The translations under genes and the position numbers were made by a program. Positions 40,725-41,719 of a stretch of DNA of 64,000 nucleotides are shown piece by piece (position 1 is the stretch's first letter; every line of letters starts with the position of its first letter). The stretch is from Chloroflexota bacterium (GTDB taxonomy: Bacteria; Chloroflexota; UBA6077; FW602-bin22; CADDYW01), in assembly GCA_021324795.1 (NCBI GenBank), contig JAJPIK010000027.1, forward strand, positions 1 to 64,000, in the 5' to 3' direction. Below the pieces are notes generated by a model. The model was not told where the DNA came from, made no database searches, and worked only from the letters and a program-made list of their open reading frames with translations.

Positions 40725-40807
40725 TCGCCTTCCTTGACGGTAGCGCTCCGGAATATTGTTCTATTTGGCACGTCTCCAGGAGTAAAATTAACCCAAGGAG
40801 GAGAGAC

Positions 40808-41521
40808 ATGCCGATTATTTCGAGCAGCGATGCCCAAAAGATCCGCGAGATCTTTGAAGCAAAGTTGCAAGAACCGGTCACAGTTGAGCTGTTCACACAG
40901 CCACGATCGTTGCTGGTGGTTCCCGGTCGAAAAGAATGCGAGTATTGCGAACAAACCGAGCAATTGCTTGGCGAGGTCGCGGCTCTGAGCGATAAAGTGG
41001 AGCTCAAAACGCACGACGTGCGGGCAAATCCGGAGGCCGGATCAGCCTACGGAATCGAGCCAGGCATGGTGCCGGCCTTCGTTCTGAATGGGCAAAATCG
41101 CGGCATCATTCGTCAGTTTGGGATCCCTGCTGGTTACGAATTCCGTAGCCTGATTGATGATCTGATTGACGTCTCGGCTGGCTCGACGTCGCTTTCTCAA
41201 GCAACACGCGACGCCTTGGCGGCTTTGCCGAGCGATGTTCACATTCGGGTCTTTGTTACCCCTACCTGACCGTACTGTCCAACGGTGGCCAGGATGGCTC
41301 ACCAGATGGCTGTAGAGAGCGAGCGGGTGACGGCCGATGTCATCGATGCGAACGAGTTTCCGGAGCTCTCGGATCAGTATCAAGTCAGCGGTGTTCCGAA
41401 GATCGTCATCAACGACGAATTCGAGCTGATCGGGGCTCAACGGGAGACTCATTTCACCCAAGCGGTTGTCGCGGCGGCCAAGTCGTCGGGGTCCACTGAT
41501 GCGACCAAGGATCCGCGATAG
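40808..41521 (+). CDS. Protein disulfide oxidoreductase with predicted selenocysteine (in-frame TGA at 41267-41269)
   Basis: Two tandem thioredoxin folds, 237 residues when the TGA is read as an amino acid. The first fold has Cys44-Glu-Tyr-Cys47. In the second the codons after FVTPT are TGA-CCG-TAC-TGT, that is X154-Pro-Tyr-Cys157, where PDO-family proteins have CPYC. The residues after the TGA continue the family without break or frame change (PTVARMAHQMA, then VTADVIDANEFPEL, YQVSGVPKIVIND with the cis-Pro). So TGA replaces the N-terminal, nucleophilic Cys. A SECIS-like hairpin follows at 41279-41309. PDOs shuffle disulfides in the cytoplasm of thermophiles. Start ATG 40808 has AAGGAGG (40795-40801) 6 bases upstream. 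Alternatives: a nonsense mutation or sequencing error. Confidence 0.85.
41279..41309 (+). promoter_or_regulatory. Candidate bacterial SECIS element
   Basis: Stem GGTGGCCA (41284-41291) pairs with TGGC (41295-41298) and CACC (41300-41303), with a bulged T at 41299 and loop GGA (41292-41294). Lower pairs CCA (41279-41281) with TGG (41307-41309) extend it. If the closing A-U pair opens, the loop is AGGAU, close to the AGGUCU loop of the E. coli fdhF element, which also has a bulged U. The loop lies 22 bases after the TGA, within the usual spacing. Confidence 0.65.
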
Positions 41522-41663: not shown

Positions 41664-41719
41664 CGAACAGAGACGGCCGCGATGACCTTCAGCACGGTCA
41701 TCGCGGCCGTCTCTGTTCG
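41664..41719. terminator. 24-bp perfect hairpin between convergent ftsZ and PDO genes
   Basis: Arms 41664-41687 and 41696-41719 are exact complements; loop TTCAGCAC. It begins one base past the ftsZ stop and 142 bases after the PDO stop. There is no T tract on either side. It probably ends transcription from both sides or protects the ftsZ mRNA 3' end. Confidence 0.7.

Follow-up and report, generated by a model that had tools for sequence, protein, structure and literature searches.

The window, by which we mean the whole 64,000-nucleotide stretch of Chloroflexota DNA analysed here, carries a gene for a protein disulfide oxidoreductase (PDO) with one in-frame TGA (Table 1). A plain ORF call on this gene covers positions 40808-41269 and yields a product of 153 aa, truncated at the TGA. 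The initial annotation had placed this TGA at the first Cys of a C-terminal CPYC motif, and upon re-reading both its coordinates and its codon proved exact. It had also claimed PDO homology on both sides of the TGA; indeed, NCBIfam model TIGR02187, named PDO_seleno_TRX at NCBI, spans residues 7-222 of the window protein with 248.6 bits (cut-off 185).

Table 1. Features of the PDO locus and of the selD gene in the same genome.
Feature	Position	Strand	Remarks
AhpC/TSA (peroxiredoxin-fold) like protein, 172 aa	40206..40724	-	PF00578 1.1e-7, 32.3 bits, cut-off 26; divergent neighbour
Shine-Dalgarno-like AAGGAGG	40795..40801	+	6 bases 5' of ATG, read from the sequence
Predicted PDO selenoprotein gene	40808..41521	+	ATG 40808, TAG 41519-41521; 237 aa with Sec154
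N-terminal motif Cys44-Glu-Tyr-Cys47 (CEYC)	40937..40948	+	PDO active site
In-frame TGA, predicted Sec154	41267..41269	+	codon 154, sole in-frame TGA of the PDO gene
Predicted SECIS-like stem-loop	41273..41314	+	apical AGGAT 41291-41295, 21 bases between TGA and loop
Cys157	41276..41278	+	second Cys of C-terminal U-P-Y-C (154-157)
Inverted repeat	41664..41719		perfect, 24 bases, 8-base loop; between convergent PDO and ftsZ genes
selD (L019)	C7:177239-178165 of own genome	-	one in-frame TGA, in SHGAGUACK

Two solved PDO chains match the window protein, 1j08_A with 9.9e-43 over residues 7-223 and 1a8l_A with 3.9e-41 over residues 3-223. We take these chains to be from Pyrococcus horikoshii and P. 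furiosus, respectively. Both active-site motifs of PDOs, CEYC and UPYC, are present. Pfam Thioredoxin_3 matches two stretches of the protein, one of them at 145-220, and together with the matches to the solved PDOs this suggests that the window PDO consists of two thioredoxin folds.

The gene order ADH, PAC2, PDO, FtsZ, FtsA of the window repeats at two loci of the same family (L153, L154). Across the phylum the most widespread neighbour cluster is found at only 7 of 54 TGA loci. None of the nine neighbours scanned around the window PDO gene is a trxB. The AhpC/TSA-like neighbour has no NCBIfam match and, judged by eye, lacks a Cys where the peroxidatic one usually stands, with a CADC near its C-terminus; since this Cys is missing, we do not claim the protein as a peroxidase partner. 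By eye, L153 has a similar gene at the corresponding position. The inverted repeat behind the PDO gene is possibly a two-way terminator.

The window's genome is a draft of 4.87 Mb in 124 contigs, 93.7% complete with 6.0% contamination. The initial annotation had made its reading of the TGA as selenocysteine depend on a Sec machinery in this genome, and the machinery is present: SelA (468.5 bits), SelB (352 bits) and SelD (386.6 bits) are all over their cut-offs, and tRNA-Sec scores 72.9 bits (gathering 47) and is also called as tRNA-SeC by ARAGORN. The selD gene is itself predicted to encode a second selenoprotein of this genome. Behind its TGA, AGGTC stands at the tip of a hairpin, which presumably resembles the loop of E. 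coli fdhF.

The predicted stem-loop of the PDO gene follows closely on the UGA and carries an apical G, as is typical of a bSECIS. In folding energy it does not stand out (z -0.56). Folding z differs little between the TGA and Cys groups of PDO genes (means -0.72 and -0.39, p 0.057), and raw folding energies do differ (p 0.0005). The Rfam SECIS models gave only a SECIS_3 match here, with 14.3 bits far under the gathering value of 63. Folding energy, being not significant, was dropped as proof of a SECIS, and codon counts were used instead.

For the codon counts 53 distinct TGA regions were compared with 101 distinct Cys regions from loci L023-L132, identical regions being counted once; loci L190-L220 were used for the tree described below. 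Codon +7 in the TGA regions is GCC (36) or GTG (17) and no other. Ala at +7 is GCC in 36/36 TGA regions as compared to 6/10 Cys regions (p 0.0013), and Val at +7 is GTG in 17/17 versus 33/90 (p 4e-7). Where Arg stands at +8, it is encoded by AGG in 21 of 23 TGA regions, while 20 of 62 Cys regions use AGG or AGA (p 1e-6). All of these p values ignore relatedness and are therefore too small. The same holds for the binomial p of 2e-21 that results for Arg at +8 when AGG makes up 7.9% of the Arg codons in TGA genes, the 21 at +8 included. All 24 TGA regions with Ser at +8 encode it by AGT or AGC, as do 2 of 3 Cys regions. The RNA behind the TGA is thus constrained beyond the protein, and codon choice is the convincing signal. 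Pairing in the upper stem amounts to 0.784 of cells in the 45 TGA regions with AGN at +8 and to 0.615 in the 101 Cys regions; both groups exceed slid controls, and protein conservation therefore contributes to pairing.

Sec forms were also compared with their Cys sisters. The +7 codon of the Cys relative differs from GCC or GTG in four of six such comparisons (L053, L193, L046, L028) and is kept in two (GCC in L198, GTG in L038). L142 reads GCC-GTG-TTG-CTC-GCA and its Cys sister L046 reads GCC-GTC-TTA-TTG-GCT, the same amino acids in other codons; L041 and Cys L028 are likewise identical in amino acids and differ in codons. L137 (GTC-GCC-AGG-TTG) and Cys L193 (GCT-GCT-CGT-CTC) are separated by one Val/Ala change, and L053, the Cys sister of the window group, reads GCA-CGC. 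The pairs L142/L046 and L041/L028 offer a clean test bed for the needs of a bacterial SECIS. The 17 distinct regions with GTG at +7 (L034, L041, L048, L134, L136, L138, L142, L151, L164-L166, L170, L171, L174-L177) are predicted to carry a SECIS-like loop of a second type in the PDO gene, beside the one with GCC.

We searched 400 genomes of the phylum with the TIGR02187 profile and took all counts from the matches listed, outside of which lies a second TIGR02187 match of the window's own genome. Among the matches listed, at least 54 of the 400 genomes, the window's included, have a TIGR02187 match with one TGA. One genome (G283) has two such PDO genes and another (G190) an extra weak TGA match. 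Besides the window's own, 53 of 55 TGA rows were fetched; an 80-residue fragment (G197, still counted among the 54 genomes) and the weak match G190:C72, whose genome was already counted, were left out. Cys rows were fetched in part. All 53 fetched relatives, which had been selected since the profile search showed a TGA, have exactly one, which opens the C-terminal motif (U-P/R-Y/H/W-C), and none of the 53 has a TGA at the N-terminal motif. The proteins of the same-family loci L153 and L154 are 61.9 and 64.5% identical to the window PDO, with the TGA at the same codon. As the same codon is affected in these two and in all 53 fetched loci, the TGA is not due to chance or sequencing error. Of 80 named PDO loci, 79 have Cys at the place of Sec154 and one (L131) is a cut frame; as the query of this search had Cys at 154, and one pattern too, the count says little about how rare Sec is elsewhere. 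Both Cys at codon 154 and TGA versions in related genomes, which the initial annotation had looked to an alignment of homologues to reveal, were thus found. Among further PDO relatives, CRYS or CRFS stands for the C-terminal CPYC in L216 and L218; L217 shows no such motif and has neither CxxC nor CxxS.

Among the matches listed, a SelB that reaches the curated cut-off is found in 50/54 TGA genomes versus 256/346 others (p 0.0017; tallied by hand, with G328, absent among the matches listed, counted as lacking). All 38 TGA genomes of at least 90% completeness have SelB, and the four in which it was not found (G029, G212, G328, G197) are all less than 90% complete. SelB is common in the phylum (306/400), and its association with the TGA is therefore supporting evidence only. 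G029 belongs to the same order as the window's genome and has trxB beside its PDO gene.

Three alternative readings of the TGA were considered. A regulated double product, with the 153-residue form made at scarce selenium and the full Sec form otherwise, would fit the position of the UGA a few residues after the start of the second domain, the short form then being the N-terminal domain with CEYC plus a stub. We consider it improbable, as the N-terminal CxxC is missing in 7 of the 54 Sec proteins (L163, L167-L169, L172, L173, L178), whose short form would therefore have no active site. Still far less probable is that the TGA is read as another amino acid (e.g. Trp) by a changed code, or by plain read-through without Sec. 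The conserved C-terminal half does imply read-through as such, but TGA terminates 5 of 9 neighbouring window ORFs checked (4 of 8 among those with a Pfam match) and thus is an ordinary stop here, relatives without the TGA mostly have Cys at codon 154, and the genome has the full Sec machinery. That a Cys codon (TGC/TGT) mutated or was misread to TGA, leaving a dead 153-residue product, needs one base only and a draft assembly of 124 contigs might contain such an error, but this is next to impossible in view of the TGA at the same codon in 53/53 fetched TGA loci of other genomes, the coding composition that persists past the TGA (third-position GC 0.59 before and 0.71 after) and the codon constraint behind it.

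We are thus highly confident that the gene encodes a Sec-containing PDO with Sec154-x-x-Cys157, the Sec being inserted via SelB and the hairpin; the data show the open frame, the homology, the machinery genes, the TGA of relatives and the codon constraint, and from these and the literature Sec insertion, electron direction, partners and substrates are inferred. As to the initial reading, its placement of Sec as the nucleophile in the second CxxC is well supported by the machinery, the TGA of relatives and the codon constraint, and its further guess of a new family is not, as set out below. In the mechanism we propose, SelB with Sec-tRNA(Sec) would decode the UGA at 41267, aided by the hairpin that follows. 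The selenolate at 154 would attack disulfides and Cys157 would resolve the selenenylsulfide. An NADPH thioredoxin reductase would re-reduce the PDO, and electrons would pass from PDO to protein disulfides or peroxiredoxins. According to the parts of two papers on Sulfolobus solfataricus PDO used here (PMC7465337, PMC7278568), thiol-transferase activity depends fundamentally on the C-terminal site, isomerase activity requires both sites, and thioredoxin reductase and PDO regenerate peroxiredoxins. The Sec of the window PDO lies in this same C-terminal site, and the main active site of the window PDO probably runs on selenium. One thioredoxin reductase over cut-off is encoded in the window's genome, on another contig (C34:57369-58262). 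At two loci of the same order (L182, L184) the Sec PDO gene is preceded, at a distance of 161 and 189 bases, by a trxB of the same orientation (TIGR01292 over cut-off).

The relation of Sec and Cys forms was addressed by a quick LG+G4 tree built from 54 Sec and 133 Cys forms of PDO (187 proteins), identical proteins being counted once and L131 (less than 190 residues) being left out. The tree, in which some branches are long and Cys rows are incompletely sampled, needs 16 undirected Sec/Cys changes; starred branches force 10 of these. The window PDO groups with the two Sec forms of its family (support 92), and this group belongs to a starred set of 26 Sec and 11 Cys forms (37 rows). Cys forms among Sec rows include those of the Chloroflexota MAGs L060, L076 and L086. 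Six of the seven Sec proteins that lack the N-terminal CxxC, all but L178, form one starred clade. Cys forms without it exist as well (L199, L201-L203, L217, L219, L220, L075), so the loss is not tied to Sec. Tentatively, with slightly less than even confidence, we suggest that the C-terminal site of PDO in this phylum often changes from Sec to Cys or back through a single base, with a SECIS being built or dissolved in the same few codons in two or more loop designs (GCC-AGG/AGT and GTG), and that Sec alone carries the enzyme in the sub-clade of L163, L167-L169, L172 and L173, where the N-terminal CxxC was lost. If true, PDO would be a good natural series for the gain and loss of Sec.

Sec-containing PDOs are not new. 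In the sections used here, Zhang et al. 2006 (PMC1794560) list two sequences as 'homolog of AhpF, amino-terminal domain', and Carboxydothermus hydrogenoformans and Symbiobacterium thermophilum are the bacteria they name with it; two reviews, from 2022 and 2026 (PMC9312934, PMC13188914), place TIGR02187, with UxxC and one Sec, under predicted families, and a paper of 2024 (PMC11227280) describes four in Asgard archaea, taken as newly evolved from Cys forms. The portion used of the Sargasso Sea survey of 2005 (PMC1088965) makes no mention of AhpF. A new selenoprotein family, as guessed in the initial annotation and already contradicted by the model name PDO_seleno_TRX, is ruled out by these sources (in print since 2006), and the window gene therefore adds one more member to a predicted selenoprotein family that was already known. 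In the literature searched, with subscription papers mostly outside the search, no biochemical test of a Sec PDO member was found. Our additions are modest: the Sec form is common in the phylum sampled, with at least 54 of 400 genomes among the matches listed as compared to two bacterial sequences in 2006 and four archaeal ones in 2024 in the parts of these papers used, and to this come the 16 Sec/Cys changes and the 7 of 54 Sec proteins without N-terminal CxxC. Plain ORF calling cuts the gene of such a redox enzyme short at residue 153.

With the known Sec family (TIGR02187, example ABB15282.1, Zhang et al. 2006), as presented in the parts of the sources used, the window PDO shares the model, UxxC and one Sec. 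The archaeal PDOs of known structure (1j08, 1a8l) align with the window protein over nearly the full length and share both motifs. They have Cys at the C-terminal nucleophile, whereas the window protein has the predicted Sec there. Sec glutaredoxin and Sec thioredoxin, which are small single-domain proteins, likewise have Sec at the first CxxC position in a thioredoxin-like fold. They belong to families other than that of the window PDO (PF00462 and PF00085, respectively) and, in the section of PMC13188914 used here, stand as UxxC proteins above the 'predicted' heading.
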